A stretch of 64,000 nt of DNA from a virus. Location of the stretch: the IMG/VR virus record IMGVR_UViG_3300021963_000100, positions 1 to 64,000 of that record. One strand, 5' to 3'. Shown here one piece after another: positions 7,981 through 64,000 of this stretch. The notes beneath the pieces are model-generated. The model worked only from the letters and a program-made list of their open reading frames with translations, was not told the DNA's origin and did no database searches. Numbering within the stretch: the stretch's first letter is position 1; the number at the start of each line of letters is the position of its first letter. A program made the position numbers and the translations under genes.

Positions 7981-8379
7981 ATGGACACACTAATCAAAGA
8001 AAACAAAAGAATTTTAGCGGGTTATCACTTACCCGAAGTTGAAGATGAAATGGAAGCACAAATGTATTGGGAAGACTTTGTGTATGAAGTTAAATCAATG
8101 ATGAAGAAAATGCGTACAAAGAAATTCTTTTGTTACGGGTTATCTTTAACTTGGAGAAATGTTGCAGGTTATACTAAATTTGAAACGGAGAGCGCAGAAA
8201 CTTTAATCCGTAGACTTGCACCGAATAGCGACTTTACAATGTTGTTTCATCCAACGGACAACAAAGGTATTATTGAAGTTGTTATATCGCACCACGACAA
8301 ACCAACGGGAGAAACAATGTACCTTATGAGCCAATCAATGGCAGCGAAGCAAGGTATAATGGAGAAATACTTTAACTAA
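7981..8379 (+). CDS. Hypothetical protein, 132 aa
   Basis: Start set at ATG 7981, 21 bp past the -7 box. A soluble 132-residue protein with a charged helical N-terminus, a basic KKMRTKKFF segment and a beta-rich middle. No family is recognised. Single-gene cassette. Confidence 0.8.
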   Translation: MDTLIKENKRILAGYHLPEVEDEMEAQMYWEDFVYEVKSMMKKMRTKKFFCYGLSLTWRNVAGYTKFETESAETLIRRLAPNSDFTMLFHPTDNKGIIEVVISHHDKPTGETMYLMSQSMAAKQGIMEKYFN

Positions 8380-8381
8380 TA

Positions 8382-8408
8382 GAACGGGGAGAAATCCCCG
8401 TTTTTTTT
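8382..8408 (+). terminator. Rho-independent terminator
   Basis: AACGGGGA-gaaa-TCCCCGTT type hairpin with T8. Confidence 0.85.
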
Positions 8409-8417
8409 GCTCAAAAA

Positions 8418-8449
8418 TTTGCGAGTTAAATTTATTATAAGTACATTTG
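8418..8449 (+). promoter_or_regulatory. Bacteroidota-type promoter
   Basis: TTTG 8418-8421, 20 bp, TACATTTG 8442-8449; serves the ATG at 8475. Confidence 0.9.
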
Positions 8450-8474
8450 TATCATAATCAAAAAACAAATAAAA

Positions 8475-8795
8475 ATGGAAAACTTTAATCAGTTATGCGT
8501 TTGGGAAGGCACAGTTGTTGGAGCAGACGAAGTAGAAAACTTTGAGAATTGGTTGCAATCCGAGTTCGGAGTTCGTGGAAAGTATTGTGAGGAAGTATTA
8601 ACTTTACCAACGGAAGGAGAACCAGGAACGGGAGGAAGAAACGACTTGTTATTTAGAGTACACGATGAAGATGTTATGAAGTTTGCAGTACCACGATTAA
8701 TGGTTGGTATTAAATGGTGGGAAGATGTTTTAGGGAACGGGAACGGAGTTCTTTACACCGAAGAAATCTTAAACAAATATCCAAAAACTTGGTAA
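8475..8795 (+). CDS. Acidic hypothetical protein, 106 aa
   Basis: A 106-residue acidic soluble protein with several Trp residues and a Gly-rich loop (GEPGTGGRND). No family is recognised. Single-gene cassette with promoter and terminator. Confidence 0.8.
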   Translation: MENFNQLCVWEGTVVGADEVENFENWLQSEFGVRGKYCEEVLTLPTEGEPGTGGRNDLLFRVHDEDVMKFAVPRLMVGIKWWEDVLGNGNGVLYTEEILNKYPKTW

Positions 8796-8800
8796 TTAGA

Positions 8801-8822
8801 ACGGGGAGAAATCCCCGTTTTT
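8801..8822 (+). terminator. Rho-independent terminator
   Basis: ACGGGGA-gaaa-TCCCCGT hairpin with T5. Confidence 0.82.
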
Positions 8823-8845
8823 GTTGTTTAAAACTTTGTTGAAAA

Positions 8846-8877
8846 CTTGTGGGTTAAATTTATTATATATACCTTTG
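8846..8877 (+). promoter_or_regulatory. Bacteroidota-type promoter
   Basis: CTTG 8846-8849, 20 bp, TACCTTTG 8870-8877; serves the ATG at 8904. Confidence 0.85.
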
Positions 8878-8903
8878 CATCATAAAACAAAGACAAAAAC
8901 AAA

Positions 8904-9107
8904 ATGAGAAACGAAAAAACTTGGTACGAAGTATTTAAACGAAACGAAGACGAAAGCACCGAAACTATTTTTGCTGATGCTGACTTGGAGACTTGCGTTA
9001 AAGTGTATCGTAAGGAAAAAATTAAAGACCGCTCAGTTAAAATAGATAAGTGGTTAGATGCGTCTTATTTAGACTTTCCAATCCCTATTAAATCAATCCT
9101 AAATTAA
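8904..9107 (+). CDS. Hypothetical protein, 67 aa
   Basis: A 67-residue charged protein with no recognised family. Its stop overlaps the start of the next gene (TAATG), a tight translational coupling. First gene of a two-gene unit. Confidence 0.78.
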   Translation: MRNEKTWYEVFKRNEDESTETIFADADLETCVKVYRKEKIKDRSVKIDKWLDASYLDFPIPIKSILN

Positions 9108-14880: not shown

Positions 14881-15411
14881 ATGTTTAAGTATATTTCCGA
14901 GATTATCTCCAAGATTTCAATGAAGCAGCGTTTATCTGCGCTTGCCATCGTTTTATTTGCCATTGTAACCATTTCCGTGGCTCCTAAGATCGTTTCTTCC
15001 TTTACACAGGATAATGAGGAGCTGGAACTAAAAGTCGAGCGTCAGAGGCTCCAAATCGAGCAATTATCCAATCAGGTGGATACACTCAACAGTAAAATAC
15101 TATCTGAGCAATCTAGTTGCACAAATAGATTTGTTGCCAGGGAAAAAGAAGTGCTTGATTTATTATTATCTCTGGAAACCGAAGCCAGAAATTCAAATGG
15201 TAAAATTTTATCTACCACAACAACTATGGAGAGAAAAGAAAGACCAAGATATGTGGAAGAATCAAATGATCCTAATGAGCCACGTGTTGCCAGAATGGAA
15301 ATGCCATCACCACCAACCGAAAAAACGGTTATTGTTAAAACTGATAATAGTAAACTGCTAAAGATGATCTCCAACGTTAAAAGCAACGTACAGAGTCATA
15401 TAGGTAATTAA
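14881..15411 (+). CDS. Membrane-anchored coiled-coil protein, 176 aa (spanin-like?)
   Basis: An N-terminal transmembrane helix at about residues 17-37 (RLSALAIVLFAIVTISVAPK) is followed by a coiled coil at about 44-75 (NEELELKVERQRLQIEQLSN) and a proline-rich linker; one Cys lies in the coiled-coil region. A single inner-membrane anchor plus periplasmic coiled coil is the layout of Rz-like i-spanins, so a lysis role is possible, but no o-spanin partner is recognised. It is convergent with the next gene. Confidence 0.75.
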   Translation: MFKYISEIISKISMKQRLSALAIVLFAIVTISVAPKIVSSFTQDNEELELKVERQRLQIEQLSNQVDTLNSKILSEQSSCTNRFVAREKEVLDLLLSLETEARNSNGKILSTTTTMERKERPRYVEESNDPNEPRVARMEMPSPPTEKTVIVKTDNSKLLKMISNVKSNVQSHIGN

Positions 15412-16287: not shown

Positions 16288-16893
16288 TTAAACTATGTCA
16301 GTTGATTCTAATAAAGTGTAACTAAATTTGTTTCCGTGTATCTTTGATGCTTTTTTGCATATCTTCATGAACTCATCGAAATCTTTCACTCTCTTAAATA
16401 CTTGACAACCTTCGCTCCAGTTTTCAACCCAAGTTGAATCTTGGCCAGCTTTGTGGATATTGATTCCAAACATACCAGTATCGGTAACCGATTCGCTAAA
16501 CATTAAATCTCTGTTCGCATCTCTATATACTGTTACATTACCATTTCTCTGACATAATGCATCATATTTGCCCTGGTGTTTATCAACTGACCAAACGCTT
16601 CTATATTGTCCTGGTACCAATCTGGCAACACCTTTGTTATTGTGAAATTCCATAACACCCTTTTTACCAGGATCCGTGGTTGCATTCCAGCAATAAAATT
16701 GTTCAACCCCCGCTTCATCCTTAAATGTAATGGTTAAATGATCATCAAATACATTGGTAACCTTATCCGCAACAGATGGGGCGTTATTTCTCACACCAAC
16801 GATATTAACATCATATCCTTTATTGGCGGCATCATCAAACCATTTATAGCCTTTGGCTAACACGGTGTCTTTAATTTGTTCTTTTGTATACAT
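16288..16893 (-). CDS. L,D-transpeptidase-like protein, 201 aa
   Basis: The C-terminal half contains GMFGINIHKAGQDS and WSEGCQVF: a conserved His and a Ser-x-Gly-Cys motif in the order and spacing expected of YkuD-type L,D-transpeptidase-like domains, with the Cys as candidate nucleophile. The N-terminal part (KWFDDAANKGYDVNIVGVRN) also resembles phage cell-wall enzymes from memory. No signal peptide. It could act on peptidoglycan at entry or lysis. Start TAATG overlaps the stop of the upstream gene by one base. Confidence 0.72.
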   Translation of the reverse strand: MYTKEQIKDTVLAKGYKWFDDAANKGYDVNIVGVRNNAPSVADKVTNVFDDHLTITFKDEAGVEQFYCWNATTDPGKKGVMEFHNNKGVARLVPGQYRSVWSVDKHQGKYDALCQRNGNVTVYRDANRDLMFSESVTDTGMFGINIHKAGQDSTWVENWSEGCQVFKRVKDFDEFMKICKKASKIHGNKFSYTLLESTDIV

Positions 16894-17750
16894 TATTTTT
16901 TGTTTTTAAAATAGTGAATCTGTTGCAATCTTTCTTTAGCCCCAGCTTCTGAATTATAAGTTCCTAGGTTTCCACCCTTTTCAGAGTATACCCTCCATTT
17001 ATCATCTCCAATCTTGCGGATGTATTCATCCAATGGTTGTTTGTTTGGATCGTTATCACATCCGCATTTATGACAGATGTACATATCATCCCCACCTTCA
17101 CTCTTTTTCCAACTCCAACCACAGTCATCACAGATAACCTTTGTTTTGGTCACCATCTCATCAACCGATGCAACTTCGTTATTTAATTTTGTAATATTTG
17201 TTATTGCACCATCACCCCAGATGCAACCAGATGCCACATCCCATCCATAATACCACATATGCTCATACCTGGCTTTGTAAATATAAGGTGCAATTTCTAT
17301 GCCCGCATAATCTTTGGCGACCAATGACCAATCGATTGATTTATATCTGCTGGCCATCATTGCTGAATAATTTCTTATGGTTCTGTCCTCTGGACGCATT
17401 GCGTTGTATTTCTCTTCAAACGCAACCAATTCTTTATAGTTGGTGATTTTTAGGATTCTATCCTCGTTGATATCGATTTTAAAAACGTTGTCAGCCTCCC
17501 AGTCGGGCATTTCAGATCTAACCCACCTTATCCAACTATCGCCAATACCATACCACAACCCTTTTGGTTTGAATGATATTTCCTGATTTGGTGTTGGTTT
17601 GAATTCGATGCTGTCTTTATCGGACATGATTAATCTGGCGCTGGAATAATCGGATAGAATTTTATTGTAAGTTTCATCTGAAACCTCGCCCATAACATTC
17701 ATCATGGTTTTCATTTTTGCGATTTCTTCCGTTAGTGTCCTCTTTTTCAT
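16893..17750 (-). CDS. Tagged phage protein with zinc ribbon, 285 aa
   Basis: The N-terminus TLTEEIAKMKTMMNV is a copy of the recurring LNEQInRMreIMgi peptide. The central domain has the pattern KPKGLWYGIGDSWIRWVR ... IDW ... GIEIAPY ... SGCIWGD, familiar from uncharacterised phage proteins. A zinc ribbon follows at about residues 205-230 (CDDCGW ... CHKCGCD), and a C-terminal WRVYSEKGGNLGTY segment closes it. Function unknown; the tag suggests it is packaged in the virion (inference). First gene of a minus-strand operon with 16288 and 16080. Confidence 0.75.
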   Translation of the reverse strand: MKKRTLTEEIAKMKTMMNVMGEVSDETYNKILSDYSSARLIMSDKDSIEFKPTPNQEISFKPKGLWYGIGDSWIRWVRSEMPDWEADNVFKIDINEDRILKITNYKELVAFEEKYNAMRPEDRTIRNYSAMMASRYKSIDWSLVAKDYAGIEIAPYIYKARYEHMWYYGWDVASGCIWGDGAITNITKLNNEVASVDEMVTKTKVICDDCGWSWKKSEGGDDMYICHKCGCDNDPNKQPLDEYIRKIGDDKWRVYSEKGGNLGTYNSEAGAKERLQQIHYFKNKK

Positions 17751-19511: not shown

Positions 19512-19548
19512 TATACGTTTTAAATTAAATTTTTAAGCAAAATTAAAC

Positions 19549-19556
19549 TATTTATG
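19549..19556 (+). promoter_or_regulatory. AACTATTTATG motif (candidate late promoter)
   Basis: TATTTATG at 19549-19556, 16 bp before the ATG at 19573; the only promoter-like signal found ahead of the long operon 19573-26704. Confidence 0.55.
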
Positions 19557-19572
19557 TGAAAGTAATATTCCC

Positions 19573-20619
19573 ATGGAAAAAAATATATTAAACGAACAAA
19601 TTTTGAGGATGCGAGAAATTATGGGCATCAACGAAAGTGCGAAGGATCAATTTAAAAAAGATTTGCAAAACGATCCAGATTATAAAGAGTTTAAAGATAA
19701 AGCAATCGTACCTGGTAAAAACGGTGGAATTGATTATAGTTATGGTGTTGTTAACCCAGACAATGATCCGTTTATTAATAAAACCAGTCAAGATGACGAT
19801 ACCGATGAATTAGAAGAGGGTACGCTTTATAATATTAGCGGAGTTAGCTATGATGAAATGGCTAAAGCCGAAATAGGTTCAATTGTTGGTGATTTGAATA
19901 AAATTGCGCCATATGTTTTAGAAATTGGAGATAAAGTCAAAATGAGAGCTGATGGTGCTGTTGAGGTTTCGGATGAGGGTAGGATTGTTAGAATTTTTAA
20001 AAGCGCTGATAGTTTCTTAACTCAAATTGGATATAAAGCGATTTCAGTAAACGAGGATTTTGATGACACACTAACACATCATATTGAGGAGTCCGCTTAT
20101 GACCAATCACATGGTTCACCATATGATCGTGGACATGCTGATGCTTATTATGGTAGATCTAGAAATCCACATAAATGGCCTGAGGGTACTGGTCATGGCG
20201 AAAAAGTAACTGACTTAACACCAGAAGAAATTGAGGCTTATAACGCTGGTTATGATGATTGTGACGATAGAAAGGATTGGGGTATGGATGAAAATACAAA
20301 AATGGAAACTGGCTCTGTTGGGATTATATCTAGAAGAGGTAAGATGATGCCAGCTTATTTTCAAAACTTTGGTCTTTCTGTTGCTGGTGATTTAGTTGAG
20401 TTTGATAACAATGGTAAATTATTAAAAAAGGGTGGTGGTTATCCTGAAGGTGGTTTTAAAAAATATGAGACTGTTGATGAGTTAGAGAAAGACATCTGTG
20501 CTAATTACAATGAAATGTTAGAGATGTTTAAAACCATGGCACCTACAGAAGTTGAGCTTGGTGAAAATGAGAGTTCATATCAAATAATAAAAAATGCGGT
20601 TAACTGCGATTTATATTAA
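19573..20619 (+). CDS. Tagged virion-type protein, 348 aa
   Basis: The N-terminus ILNEQILRMREIMGI is the best copy of the tag motif. At about residues 180-236 the block SPYDRGHADAYYGRSRNPHK ... LTPEEIEAYNAGYDDC ... RKDWG recurs, from memory, in many uncharacterised phage proteins. The rest is acidic. Function unknown; probably virion-associated. It heads an operon of nine genes that includes the histidine kinase and response regulator. Confidence 0.78.
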   Translation: MEKNILNEQILRMREIMGINESAKDQFKKDLQNDPDYKEFKDKAIVPGKNGGIDYSYGVVNPDNDPFINKTSQDDDTDELEEGTLYNISGVSYDEMAKAEIGSIVGDLNKIAPYVLEIGDKVKMRADGAVEVSDEGRIVRIFKSADSFLTQIGYKAISVNEDFDDTLTHHIEESAYDQSHGSPYDRGHADAYYGRSRNPHKWPEGTGHGEKVTDLTPEEIEAYNAGYDDCDDRKDWGMDENTKMETGSVGIISRRGKMMPAYFQNFGLSVAGDLVEFDNNGKLLKKGGGYPEGGFKKYETVDELEKDICANYNEMLEMFKTMAPTEVELGENESSYQIIKNAVNCDLY

Positions 20620-20624
20620 ATAAA

Positions 20625-21023
20625 ATGACTAAAGAAACTAAAGTTATAGTTAGAGCTAATGGTGGTACTTGGAAAGTAACCGCTGATCATGCAAATTATA
20701 CCACCATATCTGGTAGTGACAAATTTGTTTGTCAAGGATCGGGGGATATCGATGTTGTGGGTGAATTTTATAACGATAGTATTGTTTTGCAATTTTTGGT
20801 TAACAATCCATGGATTGGTTCACCTTGGGCTGCTGTTGGACAATATTTGGGTGATATTGGTGGTTGGAAAAATGGTAGAACGTCTTTAAGTGAAGGTGAA
20901 GAACACATATTTGTACAAACAATATACACGGATGATGATCATTGGGATTTTAAAACTAGAGTGGTAAGGTTAGCTGATACAGACACAAAAAACTTTGAAA
21001 TCTGGCCAGGTTGGTGGGAGTAA
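20625..21023 (+). CDS. Beta-rich hypothetical protein, 132 aa
   Basis: Starts 5 bp after the upstream stop. The product is beta-rich and Trp-rich (NNPWIGSPWAAVGQYLGDIG, EIWPGWWE), like a small beta-sandwich. No signal peptide and no recognised family. Operon member. Confidence 0.75.
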   Translation: MTKETKVIVRANGGTWKVTADHANYTTISGSDKFVCQGSGDIDVVGEFYNDSIVLQFLVNNPWIGSPWAAVGQYLGDIGGWKNGRTSLSEGEEHIFVQTIYTDDDHWDFKTRVVRLADTDTKNFEIWPGWWE

Positions 21024-21033
21024 ATTAAATAAA

Positions 21034-21552
21034 ATGAAAAAAATATCATTAAACGAAGAGCTAAATAGAATGCTAGAAATTATGGGTGTTGAACCAAAAG
21101 ATGGTCAGCAGTTGGATTTGTTTGCTGGTACGGATGATGCGCTACAAACAAATGATGACGAAACCTATAAGGGTAAGCGGGTAATGGTATATTATAATTT
21201 ACACAAACACACGTTTTCAATACAATATAAAGGTTTAGTGGTAGCGCATGCTAACTACGTTAAATTAGGTAATGTTGAATTTAGGGTTAGGCAAGGCGGT
21301 CTTGAAAAAGTTCGTGACGAAAAAAAGAAAAATGTGCATGCTTTTGTTATTGGTGATTTGATTGACTACGTTGAATACCCATCAACTGATATACCAACGC
21401 CAACAAGTTCAAAAATAATAACATACGATCCTTATAAATACAGTTCATTTGTCTATAAAGATAATGAAAATCCTGTGTATAACGCCAATGAGGTAGAGAT
21501 GATTAATCAACCAGGTGGTAAAATTTTCCAAATCCATGAAATTAAAAACTAA
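21034..21552 (+). CDS. Tagged protein with NLHK...KNVHAF domain, 172 aa
   Basis: Start set at ATG 21034, directly giving the tag SLNEELNRMLEIMGV. The body (YYNLHKHTFSIQYKGLVVAH ... FRVRQGGLEKVRDEKKKNVH AF) matches a small uncharacterised family seen in bacteria and phages, NLH..fSi..kG.vvaHa...L.nv.FrV...g..kVr.ekrKNVHAFv.G. Function unknown. The 3' end overlaps the kinase gene by 17 bp. Confidence 0.78.
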   Translation: MKKISLNEELNRMLEIMGVEPKDGQQLDLFAGTDDALQTNDDETYKGKRVMVYYNLHKHTFSIQYKGLVVAHANYVKLGNVEFRVRQGGLEKVRDEKKKNVHAFVIGDLIDYVEYPSTDIPTPTSSKIITYDPYKYSSFVYKDNENPVYNANEVEMINQPGGKIFQIHEIKN

Positions 21553-23296
21553 AAAATGTCTGTATGCCGCTCTGGTAATCCTATTTGTGTTTTTCATAGT
21601 AGAAACTTTAGTTGTTTTGGATATATTAGACCACTCCAAAAATTTAATTTATTTTAATTACATATGTGTTATATTATTCTCGCCATTGTTTTATGCTGTT
21701 GTTAAAGAATATATTTCAAACTCAAAAGAAATTAATAGGATTAATAAATATACTGAACGTTTAAGTGCAACTTTAATATCACAATCAAATAACACTTTAT
21801 TCTACGAGGGTAAGGTTACTGAGGGTGCTAAATTATTAACAAGTGAGGTTACCAAAACTATGGATGTTGATAGATGTTCAATTTGGTTATATGATGAAAA
21901 TAAAACTTCAATTACTTGTGAACAATTATATATCAAATCAACGGATTCCTGGCAAGAAGATATGATTCTTAGAAAACAGGATTTTGAACCTTATTTTAGG
22001 GCACTAATCGATGATCCAATAATAATAGCTAATGAAGCTGACCTACACCCAGCAACAAAATGTTTTACGGATAGTTATCTAAAACCGATTGGTATTAAAT
22101 CAATGTTAGATGTGCCGATAATATATAAAGGTGATATTATTGGGGTTATTTGTATTGAAAATTTAACCAAACGAGATTGGTTAGATGTTGAAGTAAATTT
22201 TGCTAGAACGTTATCATCGTTGTACGCTTTTGCTTATTCGATAAAAGAGAATAACACAATTAACAATAGTTTTGAGGAGTTTGAAAGTTTTGTTGATTCA
22301 TCTGTGTTGGTAAGCTATGCTGATGCTAAAGGTAAGATTACTTATGTAAATAAAAAATTTGAAAAAGTTTCTGGTTACAAATACAAAGAATTAATTGGTA
22401 AGGATCATAGTATTGTAAATTCAAAAGAACACCCAAAGGAGTTCTGGAACGATATGTATAAAACGGTCGTTAAAGATAAAAAAATTTGGAATGGTATCGT
22501 AACCAATAAAAAGAAAAATGGTGAACTGTATTGGGTTAACTCGTACATTAAAGCTGAATTTAATGAGGATAAAGAATTAACTGGTTTTGTATCGATAAGA
22601 TATGAGGTTACGGATGTTGTTAGGGGTTCATTAGAGATACAAAAGAAAAACACATATTTAGAACACGCAGCAAAAATACTCAGACATGATATGCATTCAG
22701 GTATTAACACTTACATACCTAGGGGTATCTCATCGCTTGAAAGACGTTTAACCCCAGAATTAATAGCTGAGTTAAAATTGGAGTCTCCATTAAAAATGCT
22801 TAAAGAGGGTTTAGCTCACGCACAAAAAGTTTATAAGGGTGTTTATGAATTTACGAATCTGGTTAAAAACGATTCTAAATTAGAGACACAACCATCTGAT
22901 TTAACTAAATTATTAACAGAATATTTATCAAGCACGGCTTATTCAAAACAAGTAGCAATAGATGCATTACCAACTGTTAATGTTAACCCACCGTTATTTT
23001 GTACAGCAGTTGACAATTTAATTCGTAATGGTTTAAAATATAACGATAGCGACTTTAAAATGGTTGCCGTATTTATGTTAAATGAAAATACAATTGGTGT
23101 GCAGGATAATGGGCGTGGCATGACGCAAGAAGAATTTGAACACTTATCAAAACCATATACAAGAAAACCAAATCAAAACGAACAAGGTACTGGTTTGGGT
23201 TTAAATATTTGTTTGGCCATATTAAAAGAACACGGTTTCAGTGTTTCGTGTGAAAAAAACGAAGCTGGAACTTTAATGAAAATTAAATTAACATGA
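21536..23296 (+). CDS. Sensor histidine kinase (2 TM, GAF, PAS, HK), 586 aa
   Basis: Two N-terminal transmembrane helices (about residues 8-28 and 36-54) are followed by a GAF domain (about 85-225; ending DVPIIYKGDIIGVICIENL), a PAS domain (about 240-350; FEKVSGYKYKELIGKDHSIV), and the phosphoacceptor helix with His384 in ILRHDMHSGI. The ATPase domain has NLIRNGLKYND (N box), DNGRGM (G1) and GTGLGLNI (G2), so all catalytic motifs are intact. I set the start at ATG 21536 to limit overlap. Such kinases phosphorylate a response regulator; a receiver gene lies two genes downstream. Confidence 0.92.
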   Translation: MKLKTKKCLYAALVILFVFFIVETLVVLDILDHSKNLIYFNYICVILFSPLFYAVVKEYISNSKEINRINKYTERLSATLISQSNNTLFYEGKVTEGAKLLTSEVTKTMDVDRCSIWLYDENKTSITCEQLYIKSTDSWQEDMILRKQDFEPYFRALIDDPIIIANEADLHPATKCFTDSYLKPIGIKSMLDVPIIYKGDIIGVICIENLTKRDWLDVEVNFARTLSSLYAFAYSIKENNTINNSFEEFESFVDSSVLVSYADAKGKITYVNKKFEKVSGYKYKELIGKDHSIVNSKEHPKEFWNDMYKTVVKDKKIWNGIVTNKKKNGELYWVNSYIKAEFNEDKELTGFVSIRYEVTDVVRGSLEIQKKNTYLEHAAKILRHDMHSGINTYIPRGISSLERRLTPELIAELKLESPLKMLKEGLAHAQKVYKGVYEFTNLVKNDSKLETQPSDLTKLLTEYLSSTAYSKQVAIDALPTVNVNPPLFCTAVDNLIRNGLKYNDSDFKMVAVFMLNENTIGVQDNGRGMTQEEFEHLSKPYTRKPNQNEQGTGLGLNICLAILKEHGFSVSCEKNEAGTLMKIKLT

Positions 23297-23820
23297 GAAA
23301 TTTTAAAATAGATCCATTACATTCATACGTTGGCTTTAGAGTCAAGCATATGATGATTACCAATGTAAATGGTAGTTTTAAACAATTTGACGCTAAAATG
23401 GGTGCTAAATCTGATGATTTTTCGGATGCGCAGATACATTTTGAGTGTGCTGTTGAATCCATAACAACAAATATACAAGATAGAGATGATCATTTAAAAT
23501 CACCAGATTTTTTTGATTATGAACAATACCCAGTGATTACGTTTAAATCGAGTGGTTTTATAAAAATTAATGATAGTGATTATAAAGTAACTGGTGATTT
23601 AACAATAAAAAATACTACATTACCGATTGAGCTTGAAGGTAAATATAATGGTAACGACATTGATATGCATGGTAATGTTAAGCACGGTTTTGAAATGTTT
23701 GCAAAAATCAACAGGAGTGATTTTGGGTTAACGTGTAATGCGTTAAGTGGTAAGGGTAATATGTTGATAAGTGAAGAAGTAAAAATAATAATTAATATAT
23801 TAATGATTGAAATTTTATAA
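23293..23820 (+). CDS. YceI-like protein, 175 aa
   Basis: The N-terminus FKIDPLHSYVGFRVKHMMIT, followed by VNGSFKQFDAKM, SITTNIQDRDDHLKSPDFFD and YPVITFKSSGF, reproduces the conserved core of the YceI (lipid/isoprenoid-binding lipocalin-like) family. There is no signal peptide, so this is a cytoplasmic form. ATGA overlap with the kinase stop implies tight coupling. A lipid-binding protein between a kinase and its regulator could supply or sense a ligand (inference). Confidence 0.88.
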   Translation: MRNFKIDPLHSYVGFRVKHMMITNVNGSFKQFDAKMGAKSDDFSDAQIHFECAVESITTNIQDRDDHLKSPDFFDYEQYPVITFKSSGFIKINDSDYKVTGDLTIKNTTLPIELEGKYNGNDIDMHGNVKHGFEMFAKINRSDFGLTCNALSGKGNMLISEEVKIIINILMIEIL

Positions 23821-23822
23821 AA

Positions 23823-24263
23823 ATGAAGGATATTATTGAATCAATACTATTGGTGGATGATGAGGATTTGTTCCACTTAGTGTTTGAGGATGCGTGCAGT
23901 TTGCTTGACATCACATTAACATTAGAATCAATTAACAGCGCTGAAGACGCTGAAAATTTATTTAAAACAAAATACAGGGATATTAATTCAAGACCCACAT
24001 GTGTTTTTGTTGATCTTAATATTATTGGGTCATCATTTGACGGTATTGAATTAGTCAGAAGAATAAATTTTGTTCATGGTAATAATGTCGTAATTGGTAT
24101 TATATCATCAAGTAATGAACAAGAGGAGCAAACTAAAGCCGTTAAAGCTGGGGCTCAGTTTTGGATTATTAAATCAGATGAGATTGAACCTAGGTTAGAG
24201 GAATTTAAAAAAGATTTTCCATTATATAAGGAAAGATTGGCTCCGTTTAAAATATATAAATAA
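23823..24263 (+). CDS. Single-domain response regulator, 146 aa
   Basis: Receiver domain with the acidic pocket ILLVDDEDLF (Asp12, Asp13), phosphoacceptor Asp64 in CVFVDLNI, Ser in GIISSS (95-97) and Lys117 in FWIIKSD. There is no output domain, as in CheY/Spo0F-type proteins. It starts 2 bp after the YceI gene. Likely partner of the upstream kinase; the output must be through protein contact. Confidence 0.9.
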   Translation: MKDIIESILLVDDEDLFHLVFEDACSLLDITLTLESINSAEDAENLFKTKYRDINSRPTCVFVDLNIIGSSFDGIELVRRINFVHGNNVVIGIISSSNEQEEQTKAVKAGAQFWIIKSDEIEPRLEEFKKDFPLYKERLAPFKIYK

Positions 24264-24268
24264 AAGTA

Positions 24269-24862
24269 ATGTTTAAATTAACTAAAGAAACTAAAAAATG
24301 TCTAATTGAGATATATAAAAACAAAAATATATCTCTAGAAGGTAATATATTGAAGTTAATAGATGTGGATGGTGAGGAAGATGCGGAATTTAACGAATAT
24401 ATTAAAAATGCTATTACTTTAGATAAAGATGTGAGGAGAAAACGTTTAGATATTACAAAACAAATACAATCGCAAAACAAACAATTATTAGCAGCACAAA
24501 AAGAAAATGAAAAACTAATGACCGAATTAAAATCAGCGTTAGATGAAGCTAAAGATGCAAAATTAGAAGCTGAAAAATTACGTGATGCTGCCGTTGAGGA
24601 TTTAGATACATTACAGAAAAGGACGCAATTCGAATTGATTGGATTAATAGTCAAAAGCGCATTATATGTTATAATTGGAGTTGGTTTAATCACAACTGGG
24701 TTATACATTTTTGCGATGACTAATCATTATGATACAAAAATACTTGAGTCATCTTGGAGTAATATGTTTGGAATTTTATTAACAAATTCATTTAGTATCA
24801 TTGGTACAATAATGGGTGTTAAATATGCCACGGATAATAGTAAAAAAACAGAAAATAAATAA
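24269..24862 (+). CDS. Coiled-coil membrane protein, 197 aa
   Basis: A soluble N-terminal 60 residues, a long coiled coil at about 60-115 (KENEKLMTELKSALDEAKDA), then two transmembrane segments (about 121-146 and 165-186) and a short polar tail. No family is recognised. Directly after the response regulator; could be a membrane target or scaffold of the signalling genes, or a holin-like protein. Both are inference. Confidence 0.78.
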   Translation: MFKLTKETKKCLIEIYKNKNISLEGNILKLIDVDGEEDAEFNEYIKNAITLDKDVRRKRLDITKQIQSQNKQLLAAQKENEKLMTELKSALDEAKDAKLEAEKLRDAAVEDLDTLQKRTQFELIGLIVKSALYVIIGVGLITTGLYIFAMTNHYDTKILESSWSNMFGILLTNSFSIIGTIMGVKYATDNSKKTENK

Positions 24863-24867
24863 AAAAA

Positions 24868-25710
24868 ATGAAAGAATTTGCATATAACACAGGATCACCA
24901 ATATACGGAACAGATCAAATTGGTGATTTAGCCGTTGGTGCGGCCAATGGTAATTACGAGTACACAAATAATCCACAATTCTGGGGGGGTGCTGATGATA
25001 CCACGGGGTATATCATAGCAGCGCCAGTTCCAGATAACTCACAACCAACACCAATACCTGGTGTAACAGCATCGGTTTGTTTTTATGGTACAGGTAATAC
25101 AGAATCAGAGTTTATTTTTTTAGCAAATACATTAAGCGGCCAAGATTTCACAAGTGGTAATGAGGCTAGTGTATGGTTAAATAGTAATGGTTATTGGAGT
25201 AATTGGTCTGGTTTTGGTAGCTCTGGGTTCCAATGGATGACAATGACTGAGATTAACGAAAGTGATGCCCATGGGATAGGACAAAATAACATCACAATTA
25301 ATATTACACAATCGGGCGGTGGTATGGGTATTGAGCCTGGTATGTACAATGCCAATACATTCCCTGAAGAATACGGTGTGCCTCTTGTTGGTGACCAAAT
25401 TCAAAACAGCCAGGATGGTGTATTTACTGCAACATTTAGTCAACCTGTGACGGATCCTTTAGTTGCGTTTGCGAGTGTTGGTAATCCAAGTCTATATGTC
25501 CCAGTGATTGTTTCAGCACCGTTCACACCAATTTGGGGTCAAAATACAACATATCAAAACCAATCAGGATCACAATACACACAGTTTACTGGTAACGAAG
25601 GGTTTAATATTATCCGTATAGATGGTACTCACACGTCAATTACCTTTAACTACACCGTTGCTGAGTACTACAGTACAATTTGTTTCGGGTTTGTTGATCA
25701 AAACCCATAA
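24868..25710 (+). CDS. Virion surface protein, paralogue 1, 280 aa
   Basis: First of four related proteins (24868, 25724, 26744, 28604) that share an N-terminal module: a short strand segment, D..GYIIA, then a region ending in A.vWLN. The C-terminal half is a Gly/Ser/Thr/Asn-rich beta domain. No signal peptide. Probably a tail or fibre decoration protein; the clustering of paralogues supports a receptor-interaction role (inference). Confidence 0.75.
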   Translation: MKEFAYNTGSPIYGTDQIGDLAVGAANGNYEYTNNPQFWGGADDTTGYIIAAPVPDNSQPTPIPGVTASVCFYGTGNTESEFIFLANTLSGQDFTSGNEASVWLNSNGYWSNWSGFGSSGFQWMTMTEINESDAHGIGQNNITINITQSGGGMGIEPGMYNANTFPEEYGVPLVGDQIQNSQDGVFTATFSQPVTDPLVAFASVGNPSLYVPVIVSAPFTPIWGQNTTYQNQSGSQYTQFTGNEGFNIIRIDGTHTSITFNYTVAEYYSTICFGFVDQNP

Positions 25711-25723
25711 ATCATATTAGAAG

Positions 25724-26704
25724 ATGAGTAATAAAGTTGTAGCATATAACAGTGGTTCGGTAACAGCATACGGTACCAAATATGGTAATCTTGAGGTTGG
25801 TACTGTTGCCAACGATTATAGAAAAAATACAGGTGGGTTAACTTGGTATAACTCACCAAACTTTGGTAATGATTATGTGATGATCTCAAACACATATGAT
25901 TTAGGTTTATCCACACAAGGTAACGCTAAACCACTATTTTGGGTTGCAACAAATGATAATGATTTTTTAACCATTGTAAATAAATTACATGATAATCGTA
26001 ATGCGGCACCGTTAGGTACCGTAGCGGATGCGATAAATTGGGTTAACGCTAGTAATAAGTATTATTTAGTTAACACACCATCAGCTTTTGTTAGTGGTGG
26101 TTTGGTTCTTAATTTATTATCAGCACCAACATCAGGTTCTGTGTGGACTGATACACAAGGTTCTTATAATGGTACAATAACAAACGGAACATATACATCT
26201 GATCATGGTGGTGGTATTATTTTAAATAATGGAACTGTTGGATTAAATTATAATTTAGGTGCTAGATGGACTGTTGAAGTTATTGCTAAAGGCCAAGCGG
26301 TTCAAACATACTGGGCTTCATTATGGGGTGAAGAAGTTTGGGGTTCCAGAGGTTGGACGTGTTATGCCGCTTCTGCTGGAACGTGGACTGTTACCCCAGC
26401 TAGTTTTGGTTCTGTTGCTAATTTTTCGGCTACAATGACTAATATAAATCATTATGCAATAAGTTATGATGGTACAAATATTAGAATGTATGTAAACGGT
26501 ATCAAACTAGCAACATCAGCTTCGGCACCACCAACACCATCAGCTCAAGGGTTTTTATTTGGTGCTAGACACACAAATGGTGGTACTGGGGCAACAGATT
26601 ATTTTAAAGCCACATATTACCAAATGAGAATATACAACACAAATATTTCTGACGCAGATGTAACAACTAATTTCAATGCAATAAAAACAACCTATGGGTT
26701 ATAA
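25724..26704 (+). CDS. Virion surface protein, paralogue 2, with LamG-like domain, 326 aa
   Basis: The N-terminal module shared with its neighbours (VAYNSGSV ... DYVMISNTYDLG ... PLFWVATNDNDF ... DAINWVNAS) is followed from about residue 150 by a concanavalin-A/LamG-like domain (RWTVEVIAKG ... HYAISYDGTNIRMYVNGIKL ... YQMRIYNTNISDADVTTNF). LamG folds bind glycans or proteins, so this is a candidate receptor-binding protein. Last gene of the long operon. Confidence 0.82.
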   Translation: MSNKVVAYNSGSVTAYGTKYGNLEVGTVANDYRKNTGGLTWYNSPNFGNDYVMISNTYDLGLSTQGNAKPLFWVATNDNDFLTIVNKLHDNRNAAPLGTVADAINWVNASNKYYLVNTPSAFVSGGLVLNLLSAPTSGSVWTDTQGSYNGTITNGTYTSDHGGGIILNNGTVGLNYNLGARWTVEVIAKGQAVQTYWASLWGEEVWGSRGWTCYAASAGTWTVTPASFGSVANFSATMTNINHYAISYDGTNIRMYVNGIKLATSASAPPTPSAQGFLFGARHTNGGTGATDYFKATYYQMRIYNTNISDADVTTNFNAIKTTYGL

Positions 26705-26719
26705 TGATAATAATCAAAC

Positions 26720-26727
26720 TATTTATA
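26720..26727 (+). promoter_or_regulatory. TATTTATA motif (candidate late promoter)
   Basis: AAACTATTTATAGTTA, 16 bp before the ATG at 26744. Confidence 0.6.
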
Positions 26728-26743
26728 GTTAATATAAATTAAT

Positions 26744-27535
26744 ATGAGAAACGAAGTAAAATATGACCCAATTAATGGTAAAACAATACAGGTTAGTGAC
26801 ACTAACACTGATTATACAATTGGAGATTGGGTAGCTGGTATAGATGATACAGTTGGTTATGTGATTGTATCAGATACAACAACGCTTAATGCTGTTGGTT
26901 CTGGTACTGGGGGTGGTTTGGGTGATCCAGCTGGTGCTAATATGCCAGTTTTTTGGCAATCAACTGGTAGAACGGATAATGCGTTAATTGATTTATTAAA
27001 TAAAATACCAGGATCGCCAGGTATGTTTACTGATATTAACACGGCATTAATGTGGTTATCGACCTCACCAATGTCGCTTACTGGTTATAATAATAACCCA
27101 ACGGGTACGGCATTGGATGGTGATTATTTCTTATTTGCACAATATTCACCAGCTATGTCATCTGGTTCTATAACATTCCCAAATCACGAAATTGGCACTT
27201 ATGATTTAAACCCAAACCATGTTGGTCAATACAGTTTTGGTATGTATGATACACAATTATATATAAATAAGTTTGCATTTGGTGATGTGAGTAATGAAGC
27301 AATTTTTAATCAATTTGTTGGTAAATCTGGCACCTTAACTTTAACACAGGGGTCTAATAGTGTTACATATGCATTTACCAATCAAGCGTTTGAAAATAGC
27401 AGTTATGGTGGCACTAACTTATATGCCGATAATCACTTTGAAAATAGTGTTTCAGGTTCAATTACCGTTATATCTCCAGCGTCTGGTGAATTTAATACAA
27501 CACAACCAATAACTATTAGCTACACACTAAACTAA
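26744..27535 (+). CDS. Virion surface protein, paralogue 3, 263 aa
   Basis: The N-terminal module (DYTIGDWVAGIDDTVGYVIV, PVFWQSTGRTDNALIDLLNK, ALMWLS) matches the two preceding genes. The C-terminal half is a beta-rich domain unlike LamG. It has its own late motif and is followed by a small gene. Confidence 0.75.
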   Translation: MRNEVKYDPINGKTIQVSDTNTDYTIGDWVAGIDDTVGYVIVSDTTTLNAVGSGTGGGLGDPAGANMPVFWQSTGRTDNALIDLLNKIPGSPGMFTDINTALMWLSTSPMSLTGYNNNPTGTALDGDYFLFAQYSPAMSSGSITFPNHEIGTYDLNPNHVGQYSFGMYDTQLYINKFAFGDVSNEAIFNQFVGKSGTLTLTQGSNSVTYAFTNQAFENSSYGGTNLYADNHFENSVSGSITVISPASGEFNTTQPITISYTLN

Positions 27536-27543
27536 ATTAACTT

Positions 27544-27780
27544 ATGGAATATAGAATTAAATTTGAGGTTTATAATAGATTTAACCACCTAATAAAAGAA
27601 GAGTTAAAATCTGTGATAATTAATGAGCCAACTGTTGCCGAAATAAAAGATTTATTCCCAAAAGACCAGTATGGTAATATTGAATCTGAAATTTTTATTG
27701 GTAATGGTGGTAGACGTGATTTGGTTGATATTGATTTAGTTAATCAAGTTTGGGTTAAATATGTTATTAAATTAAACTAA
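27544..27780 (+). CDS. Hypothetical protein, 78 aa
   Basis: A small charged protein with strand-helix layout, starting 8 bp after the previous stop. Unrecognised; perhaps an assembly partner of the surface proteins. Its 3' end overlaps that of the convergent ADP-ribosyltransferase gene by 4 bp. Confidence 0.75.
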   Translation: MEYRIKFEVYNRFNHLIKEELKSVIINEPTVAEIKDLFPKDQYGNIESEIFIGNGGRRDLVDIDLVNQVWVKYVIKLN

Positions 27781-28514
27781 ACCTCATCATCACCAAAATC
27801 TGGATTGAATATTTTATATTCTTCGATATCCAATATTAAATAATATTCACCTTCGGGTGTGAATTTAATAACCTCATCTTCATCACGAATAACTTCTTGT
27901 TCATACCCTAAGTCGCCTTGGGTATGTTTAAATATAATATTCATAACTTGTGGATTCATAATAAATGTATCATCCACCTTTGTTTCAAATATAACTGGGA
28001 CATTTATAATATTTTCCCATTCTTTACCCCTAAACCCACTAGAGAAAAATAAAGACGCTGTCCAACTAGTAACATCCCTGTTTGGTTTATATGGGAATGG
28101 TGTTTTAAATTTAAGGTAGGATCCATTATCGAACTCTTCAAATTCTGGATTTTGTTTTAACCAATTACTTAATACTGGTAATTTAACTGACGTACCCCTA
28201 TATACTAACTTACCGTATGGTGGATTTAAAATTTCTGGGAAATATTGTTTTAGTTTGGTTAAATCGGAAACTGTTGATATTATTTTAGCTGCGCTAGAAT
28301 CGGTAGATGATTGAGTCCAAGTCTTTAAATTTTTTAATATGTTGGTTTCTAAAGGAGTGTTTTTTTCTGGTTCTTTGTTTTGTATACCAGCTATTTGTGG
28401 GTTAGAACCAAATAAAACATTACCCACTTGTTGTTGGATGGCTTTTGGTATTGCCCTCTCATCCAAATTCAAGATGGTACGCATTCGATTTATTTGCTCA
28501 TTTAAATTACCCAT
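27777..28514 (-). CDS. ADP-ribosyltransferase with N-terminal tag, 245 aa
   Basis: The N-terminus MGNLNEQINRMRTILNLDE is the tag motif. The body shows the arginine-type ART signature in order: Arg106 in LVYRGTS, the Ser/Thr motif in DVTSWTAS (149-154), and E205-x-E207 in GYEQEVIRD. T4 Alt has the same layout (LYRSQT, VSTSLY, EMEVIL). T4 Alt is packaged in the head and injected to modify host RNA polymerase. By analogy this is a packaged effector (inference). A TATTTATT motif precedes it. Confidence 0.82.
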   Translation of the reverse strand: MGNLNEQINRMRTILNLDERAIPKAIQQQVGNVLFGSNPQIAGIQNKEPEKNTPLETNILKNLKTWTQSSTDSSAAKIISTVSDLTKLKQYFPEILNPPYGKLVYRGTSVKLPVLSNWLKQNPEFEEFDNGSYLKFKTPFPYKPNRDVTSWTASLFFSSGFRGKEWENIINVPVIFETKVDDTFIMNPQVMNIIFKHTQGDLGYEQEVIRDEDEVIKFTPEGEYYLILDIEEYKIFNPDFGDDEV

Positions 28515-41137: not shown

Positions 41138-44100
41138 TTATGCTTTAACCAATGGTATTTGCTTGTCTTTGTTACCAAGTTTATTGATATCATCAATCAA
41201 TTGCTTCATAACTTCTAGAACGTTTTCAGTATTTTGCTCCAAATCATTGTTTCTGCTAATAATTTGTGCGGATTTTTGTACTAAAGCAATTCTAGCTGCT
41301 TGGTTTATACCACTTAAATCATAATTACCAACTTTTTCTGGTAAGAATTTTTCTGGGTTACCTGGGTTGTATTGCATACCAGTTTCGGTTTTAGCGTCAT
41401 CAGCCGATTGTTTTGCCGCATCATCCATTGCATCTTCTTCAGCGCTCATAACATCCTTTAACATTCGTTTATATGCGGTTACATCCATATCAGCACGACT
41501 AATCATTGAAACCATTTTAGGTGCTGGTACTTTAGCTAATGAACCCAACACAACAGATAGGAAATCAGCTAATTTAATTCTGTTAAGTTTTTTATTGTGT
41601 TTTTTCATATAACTAACAACAATCTTACTACTCAAATCTGGTATAATTGTAGCTAACTCTTGGAAAATTAGTCCAGCTGTACCGTTCATAATAGCATCTT
41701 CCTTACTTTGCTTCATTTCTGGTTGATTATCACCAAATTCATCTAATGTTGTTATATTTTCTAAAATAACATCAATTAAATTATTATGGGTTTCCATTAA
41801 ATTGTGTAACTCAACACCCTCATAAAACTCACTACCATAGAAATTACCACCCCTTTTACTTGGTTTACCAGCATCGGCATCTTGATTGTTTTGATTATCT
41901 TGGTTGTCAGTCGGTGTGTTTTGGTTATTATTAGATGAATTTTGATTGTTAGAGTTACCTTGGTTACCATTTGATGACCCTTGGTTGTTAGAGTTACCTT
42001 GGTTACCATTTGATGATCCTTGGTTGTTGGTGTTTGTTTTATTAGTACCATCTTTCACATTAGGGTTACCTGTGTTTAAAGACATTTCGCCACTTTTAAC
42101 TTTATCTATTAAAGTTGAGAAAACAGCATACATTGATTTAAGGTAATTTGGTAAATTTTTCAAAAATTCACGTCTATCATTGTAAACTTTATTCATTTCA
42201 CCTTTACCTGGAACTCTCTCAGCTCTTTCATTTAATTTATTGATACCAATTGATTTTAATTGATCCATGATATTGTTACCATTTTTAAATTGAACTGAGT
42301 AGATAGCTTTATTAAAATCACTGATAAATATTTTTAAACTTTTTTCATCTGAAATTAATAAACTATTAATATCCATTCTAGCTATAGGATTACCTTTAGC
42401 TTGATCTAATAAATTTTGTAATTTTTTATCTTGTGTGCCAAATCTATTAAGGGTTTTAACAATATTAGATAATCTATTTACATTGGTTTTGAACAACTTT
42501 AATTGATTTTGGCTTAAACCAATATCACCAATACCCTTATCGTTGGTATTTTTTTCTGAAGCCGCTTGACCTTTAGAGCTAATCGATCTCATCAAGCTAT
42601 CATCAGCCTCAACCAAAATATCTAAACTGTTTAATAAATTAATTAACTGGATATCACCCTCCATTAATTTGTATATATCATTAACATCATTAGGTTGTGT
42701 TATTTTCTTTTCAACCTTACCACCACCGCTATATTGTTTAGTTGGGTTAGAAGAACCTCCTTTACCATAGGTATCGGAATTAACTTGAGATTTAAAATTA
42801 AAAACATCTTGGAAATATTTTTTCAAGTCTCTATAAAGTTGTTGGTCTTGACCACCACCAGTTTGTTTGTTTTTATTGTTACCTTGTTCGTCACCACCTT
42901 GTGGGTTTTTATCGTCACCTTCGCCATTACCAATAACAATTGGGTTTTCTTTGGTGCTTTCAATTGGTCTGATTGACTGTAATAAATCATTTAATAATTG
43001 TGCTCTTGATGATTTTTTACCTTTCATTCTAGCCAATTTAACAGCTAAAGCACCAAGTCCCAATGCAATACCAAGAGGGCCTAAAATTTTTGCCGCTATA
43101 CCCCATTTAGCATACGCACCAGTACTTACAGCAACTTTAGTTGTCACATATGTGGTGTAAATTGCTTTACCTAAAAATGCGGCTTGTGCGCTAATACCAA
43201 ATAAAGCTAAACCAGGTTTCATACTACCATATGTTTTAGCCGCCTTTGTGAATATCTCACTAACTTTTGATGACGAGTTTTGGGTACACAATTCATGTAG
43301 CATTTGTGCTTGTTTCTCTGGTGAAATAATATTACCAGCGACATCTCTAGCACCATTACGCAAAAACATGCCTGAAACCGCTTTTTCACCACCATGATTT
43401 TCGATAAACCAATTCACATCAGCACCAGTTGCCATCTTTCTACCACTAATTTCTTGCATCCAGTGCAACATACCTTGAGAATCTGGCTTACCACCACTAA
43501 TTAATTTTTCAATTTGTTGTGGGCTTGTAATGGTTTTTATCGTTTGAGGGTCAACCAAATTTTTAAACCAGTCTGTTTGAAACATCCAAGATAAACCCTT
43601 TAAAACACCACCACCAATAGCTAATAAAGCTGGTAGTTTATTCGAATCTAAAGTTTTCATTCTGGTGCTATCATAAGCAGCCACATCACCTTTTTTAATC
43701 GCTGATTTGGTTGACGCAAATCTATTATCGGCATCAGCTTTAGCTTGATCTAAATCATCGTAGGCTTCCATTAGTTCAGTTAATACTTGATCGGTATCTG
43801 TTTCCTCACCTTCATTAAACACACTAAATGCTGCGGTTAAATCATAATCCAAATATTTCTGAGTGTATTCTTTTAAATCATTAATAATTTCATTTGCAGC
43901 GTCAACAGGTAAAAACCCTTTTTGATCTGGGTTTAACTTAGTTGCCTTCACCAATGAATCATATACGGTTGCAATTTCAATGACGGTGTTAACGAAATCT
44001 AACTGACTTTTGTTATTTGGGAATTCTGGGTTTTTTTCTCTAATTGATTTATCCAAATCTTTAATTACTTGGTTAGCTTGTTTCTCCAATAAATCTTTAA

Positions 44101-44332
44101 TTTTATTGTTAGCAACAGCTGTGGCTTGGGTTTTACCTAATATTTTCCCGCCAGCTTTATATTTACCTAATTTGGATAATGCATATTTCGCATTTTCCCA
44201 CCAACCCTCATTAAGTGGGCTTAAATTAATTTGGTTAAGCTCAAATTCCAACAATTCAGCTTCATTTAACATGGGAAGACCCATTTGTCTTCTCATTGTG
44301 TTAACTTCATTTAAAATGTTCGCACTAGTCAT
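41138..44332 (-). CDS. Large tagged virion-type protein, 1064 aa
   Basis: The N-terminus ILNEVNTMRRQMGL is a variant of the tag motif, followed by a second LNE element (PLNEGWWENAKYALSKL). Mainly helical domains follow (about 60-400), with two hydrophobic stretches near 370-430 (GLALFGISAQAAFLGKAIYT, LGPLGIALGLGALAVKLA). Two Asn/Gln/Gly-rich linkers lie at about 470-500 and 765-830. Probably a large internal or head protein (inference). Starts 2 bp after the upstream ORF. Confidence 0.8.
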   Translation of the reverse strand: MTSANILNEVNTMRRQMGLPMLNEAELLEFELNQINLSPLNEGWWENAKYALSKLGKYKAGGKILGKTQATAVANNKIKDLLEKQANQVIKDLDKSIREKNPEFPNNKSQLDFVNTVIEIATVYDSLVKATKLNPDQKGFLPVDAANEIINDLKEYTQKYLDYDLTAAFSVFNEGEETDTDQVLTELMEAYDDLDQAKADADNRFASTKSAIKKGDVAAYDSTRMKTLDSNKLPALLAIGGGVLKGLSWMFQTDWFKNLVDPQTIKTITSPQQIEKLISGGKPDSQGMLHWMQEISGRKMATGADVNWFIENHGGEKAVSGMFLRNGARDVAGNIISPEKQAQMLHELCTQNSSSKVSEIFTKAAKTYGSMKPGLALFGISAQAAFLGKAIYTTYVTTKVAVSTGAYAKWGIAAKILGPLGIALGLGALAVKLARMKGKKSSRAQLLNDLLQSIRPIESTKENPIVIGNGEGDDKNPQGGDEQGNNKNKQTGGGQDQQLYRDLKKYFQDVFNFKSQVNSDTYGKGGSSNPTKQYSGGGKVEKKITQPNDVNDIYKLMEGDIQLINLLNSLDILVEADDSLMRSISSKGQAASEKNTNDKGIGDIGLSQNQLKLFKTNVNRLSNIVKTLNRFGTQDKKLQNLLDQAKGNPIARMDINSLLISDEKSLKIFISDFNKAIYSVQFKNGNNIMDQLKSIGINKLNERAERVPGKGEMNKVYNDRREFLKNLPNYLKSMYAVFSTLIDKVKSGEMSLNTGNPNVKDGTNKTNTNNQGSSNGNQGNSNNQGSSNGNQGNSNNQNSSNNNQNTPTDNQDNQNNQDADAGKPSKRGGNFYGSEFYEGVELHNLMETHNNLIDVILENITTLDEFGDNQPEMKQSKEDAIMNGTAGLIFQELATIIPDLSSKIVVSYMKKHNKKLNRIKLADFLSVVLGSLAKVPAPKMVSMISRADMDVTAYKRMLKDVMSAEEDAMDDAAKQSADDAKTETGMQYNPGNPEKFLPEKVGNYDLSGINQAARIALVQKSAQIISRNNDLEQNTENVLEVMKQLIDDINKLGNKDKQIPLVKA
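41949..42030 (-). repeat. 39-bp tandem repeat in coding sequence
   Basis: Encodes a 13-residue unit NQGSSNGNQGNSN repeated about twice with almost identical DNA, inside the Asn-rich linker of the 1064-aa protein. Confidence 0.75.
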
Positions 44333-60832: not shown

Positions 60833-60866
60833 TCGCAATTTACTTTAACAAAGCAGTAGTTAAAAG

Positions 60867-60874
60867 TATTTATA
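60867..60874 (+). promoter_or_regulatory. TATTTATA motif (candidate late promoter)
   Basis: 29 bp before the ATG at 60904. Confidence 0.5.
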
Positions 60875-60903
60875 TATACTAAGGAAAAGAGACATAAACT
60901 AAC

Positions 60904-63900: not shown

Positions 63901-64000
63901 GGAACATCTGGATCAGCGGGAACTTCGGGAACACACGGAACAAGTGGTATTTCATCAACAAGTGGATCTAATGGTACTTCTGGTTCAGCGGGAACAAGTG
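60904..64000 (+). CDS. Second collagen-like fibre protein, 3' end beyond window
   Basis: The start MANEHILRHGLTVSGDTVVV and the following 50 residues (FKIDGVASTTGKGKFLVVDD) are a fibre-base-type domain. From about residue 52 the protein is Gly-X-Y repeats of type B only ([20 protein letters not shown]), open to the end of the window (more than 1,030 codons). It probably forms a second fibre or extends the first. It follows 49274-60832 by 71 bp with its own late motif. Confidence 0.88.
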   Translation, partial: MANEHILRHGLTVSGDTVVVGTFKIDGVASTTGKGKFLVVDDSGNVSYQLGTTSGSAGSSGTSGSVGTSGTSGESGTAGTSGTNSTSGTSGRSNTSGTSGTAGTSGESGTNGTAGTTGTAGTSGKDGVSGTSGTSGTSGTSGRSGESGSAGTSGSAGTSGTNGTSGLSSTSGSAGTSGTAGTSGKDGVSGTSGTSGSAGTSGTNGTSGLSSTSGTSGSAGTSGTNGTSGIAGTSGSNGTSGSAGTSGTNGTSGISSTSGSNGTSGSAGTSGTNGTSGTSSTSGSNGTSGSAGTSGTSGVAGTSGLSNTSGTSGSNGTSGTNGTSGISSTSGSNGTSGSAGTSGTAGTSGISSTSGTSGSAGTSGTNGTSGVSSTSGSAGTSGSSGTNGTSGLSSTSGTSGSAGTSGTNGTSGNSSTSGSAGTSGTNGTSGISSTSGSNGTSGSAGTSGTNGTSGIAGTSGTSGSNGTSGSAGTSGTNGTSGVSSTSGSNGTSGSAGTSGTNGTSGVSSTSGTSGSAGTSGTNGTSGVSSTSGTSGSAGTSGTHGTSGLSSTSGTSGSAGTSGTHGTSGISSTSGSNGTSGSAGTSGTNGTSGVSNTSGTSGSAGTSGTAGTSGISSTSGSNGTSGSAGTSGTNGTSGIAGTSGLSNTSGTSGSAGTSGTNGTSGLSNTSGTSGSAGTSGTNGTSGISSTSGSAGTSGSAGTSGTNGTSGVAGTSGISNTSGTSGSAGTSGTNGTSGLSNTSGTSGSAGTSGTHGTSGLSSTSGSNGTSGSAGTSGTNGTSGIAGTSGLSNTSGTSGSAGTSGTNGTSGISSTSGSNGTSGSAGTSGTNGTSGISSTSGSNGTSGSAGTSGTNGTSGVAGTSGVSNTSGTSGSAGTSGSNGTSGVAGTSGVSNTSGTSGSAGTSGTAGTSGLSSTSGTSGSNGTSGSAGTSGTNGTSGVSSTSGSNGTSGSAGTSGTNGTSGIAGTSGLSNTSGTSGSAGTSGTNGTSGIAGTSGNSSTSGTSGSAGTSGTHGTSGISSTSGSNGTSGSAGTS
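61060..64000 (+). repeat. Collagen array type B in the second fibre gene
   Basis: GlyXY triplets with regular SSTSG or SNTSG interruptions, continuing off the window. Similar to 55381-60309 at both peptide and partly DNA level. Confidence 0.82.

Follow-up and report, generated by a model that had tools for sequence, protein, structure and literature searches.

The 64,000-nucleotide window analysed here is the stretch from position 1 to 64,000 of the IMG/VR virus record IMGVR_UViG_3300021963_000100, a fragment with a full length of 71,718 bp that lacks capsid gp23. It encodes a membrane sensor histidine kinase (HK; 21536-23296), a YceI-like protein (23293-23820), a single-domain response regulator (RR; 23823-24263) and a proposed membrane effector, termed TMcc (24269-24862), all on the + strand. 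Open reading frame (ORF) analysis of the window confirmed that the four genes are intact and closely spaced: the YceI start overlaps the HK stop (ATGA), RR follows YceI after a 2-bp gap, and TMcc begins 5 bp after RR. An alternative GTG start for HK at 21515 would add 7 aa. The cassette is part of a tightly packed + strand gene run (19573-27780), ahead of which lies the late-type motif AAACTATTTAT (19545-19555, + strand), with CTATTTAT beginning 25 nt upstream of 19573, the first gene of the run. Variants of the motif also precede spanin-like, tail-fibre-like and other window genes, whereas the early genes at 1-14 kb have TACCTTTG-type boxes in its place. A preliminary description of this DNA had proposed that a late-type phage operon here encodes a complete two-component system, which proved right and goes beyond chance. 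The Bacteroidota -7 element is TAnnTTTG, and the resemblance of the TACCTTTG-type boxes to it suggests that the window phage has a Bacteroidota host.

Components of the cassette

HK was identified by Pfam domains, transmembrane (TM) prediction, an AlphaFold2 model of the kinase core and invariance of the H-box. Two TM helices (residues ~13-31 and 38-56) separated by a short loop are followed by GAF (100-233; 2.9e-17), PAS (258-359; PAS_9, 1.6e-11), DHp and HATPase_c (489-585; 1.9e-13) domains, with His384 located in the H-box RHDMHSGIN. Pfam gave no HisKA match in the window HK; the core model (pLDDT 92, pTM 0.84) matched the solved kinases CpxA, ZraS and HK853 at E 1e-10 and places the conserved His in the first of its long helices. 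The H-box was invariant in 110/110 HKs, and HATPase_c was found in all 85 HKs examined for it. RR (PF00072, 1.6e-8) is a 146 aa protein consisting of a receiver only, with no DNA-binding output domain of the LytSR type detected by Pfam. Its acidic pair (D12/D13), acceptor D64, S95 and K117 are invariant in 26 diverse sequences, as is the C-terminal F142-K143-x-Y145 in the alignment. The pair thus has the sequence features of a two-component system, the kinase having an ATP-binding domain and a DHp helix that bears the acceptor His, and the receiver having the acidic pair, Asp, Ser/Thr and Lys.

TMcc was defined by an AlphaFold2 model, an alignment and its relatives. The protein comprises an N-domain, a coiled coil and two TM segments. 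In the model, a small N-domain precedes two helices, a long one (39-151) and another at 157-195; the TM segments lie near residues 123-141 and 166-184, and exactly two were predicted in 105 of 107 TMcc proteins. The second, TM2 (WSNxFGILLTNxFSIxGTIxGxKY), is the most conserved part of the protein and includes conserved polar residues (N165, T172, N173, S176 and T180). A fold search of BFVD returned a single match, an uncharacterised uncultured-phage protein that is 48% identical. The YceI-like protein is a clear family member (PF04264, 5e-43; score 147 bits, cut-off 23.7) with no evident signal peptide. In addition to the window, YceI was present within three genes of RR in only 5 of 107 distinct related loci. 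The cassette had been described as a four-gene unit including YceI; HK, RR and TMcc do recur together, with TMcc a core part, but YceI is an optional accessory.

A conserved module of large uncultured phages

All three core genes were present in 158 of 170 fetched loci, most of the others being cut by a contig end, and the order HK-RR-TMcc hardly varied. RR and TMcc were nearly always adjacent, mostly -4 to +8 bp apart, with one or two genes between them in a few loci. Single scans of IMG/VR gave 556 RR relatives (the best 80 at 73-88% identity), at least 485 TMcc relatives and, using single-sequence patterns, 6 HK relatives, the low last figure being explained by the greater variability of HK and the strictness of such patterns. 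Among 50,697 cultured-phage records there was no match to TMcc, one RR match at 30% and only remote kinases; HK matches in the phage collection (23-35% identity) were mostly to bacterial-looking records or unrelated kinases. The earlier view that such systems are rare in phages consequently applies to cultured phages but not to large uncultured ones. Many of the carrier contigs are 100-430 kb, and, with capsid and sheath used as phage markers, a T4-type capsid gp23 was found in 18 of 27 searched, identifying the carriers as large tailed phages. HK-RR-TMcc is conserved as a module across a large lineage of uncultured phages, for which the RR gene can serve as a marker.

Pairs with measurable dS gave ratios of nonsynonymous to synonymous substitution (dN/dS) of ~0.01-0.13, indicating strong purifying selection; together with the invariant H-box and RR catalytic site, this indicates that catalysis is kept by selection. 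HK-RR-TMcc is almost certainly a real, selected phage two-component system. That HK and RR belong to typical cellular families could point to a contig chimera, or to host genes that were acquired recently and serve no function in the phage, but this is exceedingly improbable given the low dN/dS and the recurrence of the cassette. Over 100 distinct loci share it, several of them on contigs that also encode capsid gp23, and this recurrence excludes chance or chimerism. A cellular homologue of the HK core was also found in just 1 of 395 sampled Bacteroidota genomes, one already known to carry it, and a search of 390 genomes of one order likewise matched only the genome already known. RR patterns matched two contigs in 84,980 species genomes. 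A further 17 Bacteroidota matches to a TMcc alignment (A2) were weak, confined to the coiled coil, and were rejected.

One cellular relative, the Bacteroidetes metagenome-assembled contig CANIVF010000058.1, has the order HK, RR and then a TMcc N-domain fused to HisKA-HATPase (8041-9090), forming a rare cellular HK-RR-HK triad. It resembles the phage cassette in its HK core (60% over the core), its RR (67%) and the N-domain of the third gene, the first 80 residues of the fusion retaining 17 of 19 TMcc-conserved positions. It differs in that the third gene ends in HisKA-HATPase rather than in two TM helices, and in its cellular neighbourhood. In an unrooted kinase tree, the cellular HK copy falls among the phage copies. 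Judged from the fusion, the N-domain of TMcc and its coiled coil seem to form a unit that acts after RR and drives an attached output. This suggests that RR signals into the TMcc N-domain, with a kinase as the output in the cell and two TM helices in the phages.

The kinases are the variable part of the cassette. Minimal HKs of related loci (294-308 aa) consist of two TM helices and the core, and fit the definition of intramembrane-sensing kinases (two TM helices, a loop of less than ~25 aa and no other sensor); others add PAS or GAF, as does the window HK, which has the short loop plus both domains. A second HK type has a signal peptide and a periplasmic coiled-coil or TPR region, and of the 94 loci whose HK is intact, 16 have two HKs upstream of one RR. 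Sensor domains are freely swapped among cassettes, and because the upstream kinases vary while RR-TMcc is constant, different inputs probably feed one output. Two further genes were seen beside the kinases: a ~205-aa secreted coiled-coil protein, perhaps a periplasmic partner of the second kinase, encoded between the two HKs in 13 loci (e.g. L071 and L061), and a 66-aa membrane protein, weakly similar to the YgaP TM domain, that immediately precedes HK in 18 loci (offset -2, e.g. L108), often after a holin-like gene.

Linkage to lysis genes and a proposed role in lysis timing

Neighbouring genes in 107 distinct loci were clustered with no prior expectation, and the commonest clusters were endolysins and small membrane proteins. 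The lysis families comprised GH19 endolysin (phrog_181, 4e-68), Amidase_2, Peptidase_M15_3, GH24 lysozyme and an endolysin-like family, together with a holin candidate (phrog_199, 5.5e-4; PF05105, 0.0019, below its cut-off). Lysis genes occupied 17.7% of the coding bp in the first 1.5 kb, a share that fell to 2.3% between 1.5 and 3 kb and to zero beyond 4.5 kb, for clusters that were picked after the neighbours had been seen. The phrog_181 endolysin, picked for being common there, lay within 10 kb of TMcc in 17 of 20 distinct records (2.5 expected; combined P 3e-10, a value that is too small, as the records share ancestry). With capsid gp23 as a distance control, the median distance of the endolysin was 72 kb to the capsid gene and 4.2 kb to TMcc, and TMcc was the closer in 13 of 13 records with both. 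A separate search placed an M15 endolysin within 2.4 kb of TMcc in 5/5 cases. Post-hoc choice affects the record-level test and the M15 test less, though neither is free of it. GH24 (PF00959) was a mixed marker, with endolysin-sized matches near the cassette in G025 and G030 and far from it in G002, and with longer matches that look like tail lysozymes. In the window, a candidate Rz-like spanin gene (14881-15411, + strand; phrog_739 lysis, 4.9e-4; TATTTATA 22 nt upstream) and an endolysin-like gene (16288-16893, - strand; phrog_33083 endolysin, 2.1e-11; phrog_3000, 3.7e-31), whose sequence cluster also occurs in 17 related loci, lie 4.6-6.6 kb upstream of the cassette. The presence of unrelated endolysins beside the same cassette argues for function over inherited gene order, and it is likely that the cassette belongs to the lysis programme; TMcc itself is a small membrane protein whose gene lies in the lysis region.

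The same linkage bears on the possibility, raised in the preliminary description, that virions carry the sensor into the cell at infection, or that it senses conditions after lysis. Some neighbouring genes share an N-terminal tag (of the type LNEQIxRMRxIMG), which would fit packaging, but the tag was on none of HK, YceI, RR and TMcc. In addition, HK and TMcc are integral membrane proteins, and the cassette is linked to lysis genes, with capsid gp23 a median of 86 kb away. Both proposals are very unlikely, the linkage pointing instead to control of lysis itself.

From the observed gene content and linkage, we infer that HK-RR-TMcc is a phage two-component system that controls lysis timing via a two-helix membrane effector, with a probability of roughly 0.58. 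The kinase would read the state of the membrane or cell late in infection, through two TM helices and a short loop in its minimal form and through added GAF, PAS or periplasmic domains in others, and would phosphorylate the single-domain RR at D64. Phosphorylated RR could then dock on the cytoplasmic N-domain and coiled coil of TMcc and gate its two-helix membrane domain, so that TMcc, acting as a holin-like pore or as a regulator of a holin, would advance or delay lysis. More likely than not, TMcc is the effector that RR controls directly. The chances are about even that the cassettes form a widespread class in which a phage HK-RR phosphorelay acts directly to gate a membrane effector with two helices, and interchangeable sensors set the time of lysis.

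Besides the limits of the linkage tests given above, several observations weigh against control of lysis timing. Among the holin and antiholin families of Pfam, PHROGs and NCBIfam, none matched TMcc, nor did any solved structure in the PDB match its fold; as it fails the sequence tests for known holins, it is not classed as one. Another small TM protein was encoded nearby in 62 of 107 loci (32 with at least two TM segments), so TMcc may not be the pore. The nearest lysis-like gene in the window is 4.6 kb away on the opposite strand, at 41 of the 107 loci the flanking DNA examined contained no recognised lysis gene, and the lysis gene was distant in G018, G019 and G022.

Two other roles were weighed against the same features. 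The cassette could mediate superinfection exclusion or altruistic shutdown, in which case the kinase would sense the attack of another phage, TMcc would depolarise or seal the membrane, and the lysis genes would be neighbours because of shared timing. A two-TM coiled-coil effector adjoining a sensor, minimal sensors that are membrane-only with a short loop, and the swapping of sensor domains are all consistent with such a role, which is nevertheless unlikely, since PADLOC gave only chance coiled-coil matches, the cassette is tightly linked to endolysins and holins, and the promoter motif is late-type. Host takeover is similarly improbable. Here HK and RR would rewire host signalling as a phosphate source or sink, with TMcc merely tethering RR to the membrane; Bacteroidota hosts have many two-component systems, and an RR without a DNA-binding domain can act through protein contact. 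The promoter is, however, of late rather than early type, RR is conserved beyond what would be expected of a decoy facing varied hosts, and the conservation of TM2 goes beyond the needs of an anchor.

Control of lysis timing by HK-RR-TMcc would extend a short list, as the molecular basis on which phages choose their lysis time has been described for few systems, and the signalling route of lysis inhibition in T4 is still incompletely understood. In T4, the T holin is regulated by the antiholins RI and RIII (PMC6832632, PMC11413866), with secondary adsorption as the signal (PMC6832632), and TeaA/ArrA has been described in ICP1 (PMC7182436). The cassette is proposed to resemble these in that phage sensing sets lysis time via a membrane protein, and many of its carriers have a T4-type capsid gp23; in T4, however, antiholin binding involves no kinase or receiver. 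In Staphylococcus aureus, the LytSR-LrgAB two-component system is linked to proposed holin/antiholin and murein hydrolase control, with LytS a proposed membrane-potential sensor (PMC8774646). The phage system is likewise tied to lysis genes, but LytSR activates lrgAB transcription (PMC8774646), whereas the phage RR has no output domain, TMcc shows no recognised relationship to LrgA, and the carriers are phages. The minimal HKs are built like the intramembrane-sensing kinases SaeS, VraS, GraS and BraS, with two TM helices, a short loop and a kinase core (PMC8774646, PMC4388633); unlike those systems, the window HK adds GAF and PAS and its RR lacks a DNA-binding domain. Receiver-like cREC domains also occur in jumbo phages, and according to their description they never occur in signalling systems with a histidine kinase (PMC7824862); RR differs in being canonical and kinase-linked. 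Searches of the open-licence literature turned up no report of a two-component system that is encoded by a phage and linked to lysis. The parts are of known kinds; their combination, in which a complete phage two-component system is apparently connected to a membrane protein with two helices amid lysis genes, was absent from the literature searched. If the proposal is correct, phage lysis would have its first known complete two-component system, and lytic viruses represented by hundreds of environmental phages would time their burst by bacterial-style environmental sensing.

Other features of the window and related loci

The gene directly before HK (21037-21552, + strand) encodes a homologue of PF25735 (mycobacteriophage L5 gp82; 3e-31). 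Its product is one of several unrelated window proteins that carry the N-terminal tag, in the longer form LNEQIxRMRxIMGxxE, the others being encoded at 16893-17750 (- strand), 19573-20619, 27777-28514 (- strand) and 41138-44332 (- strand); the tag is possibly a head-targeting propeptide, comparable to those of T4 internal proteins. In 12 related loci (e.g. L018), a DnaK-like chaperone is encoded at a distance of a few genes from the cassette. Further along the window, an 821 aa ClpA/ClpB-like ATP-dependent protease subunit is encoded at 46737-49202 (+ strand; phrog_4871, 2e-254). The remaining sequence (49274-64000) holds a giant fibre-like ORF of 3852 aa and, after it, a low-complexity stretch, with a G+C content of 42-48% compared with ~33% elsewhere and the appearance of collagen-type repeats.

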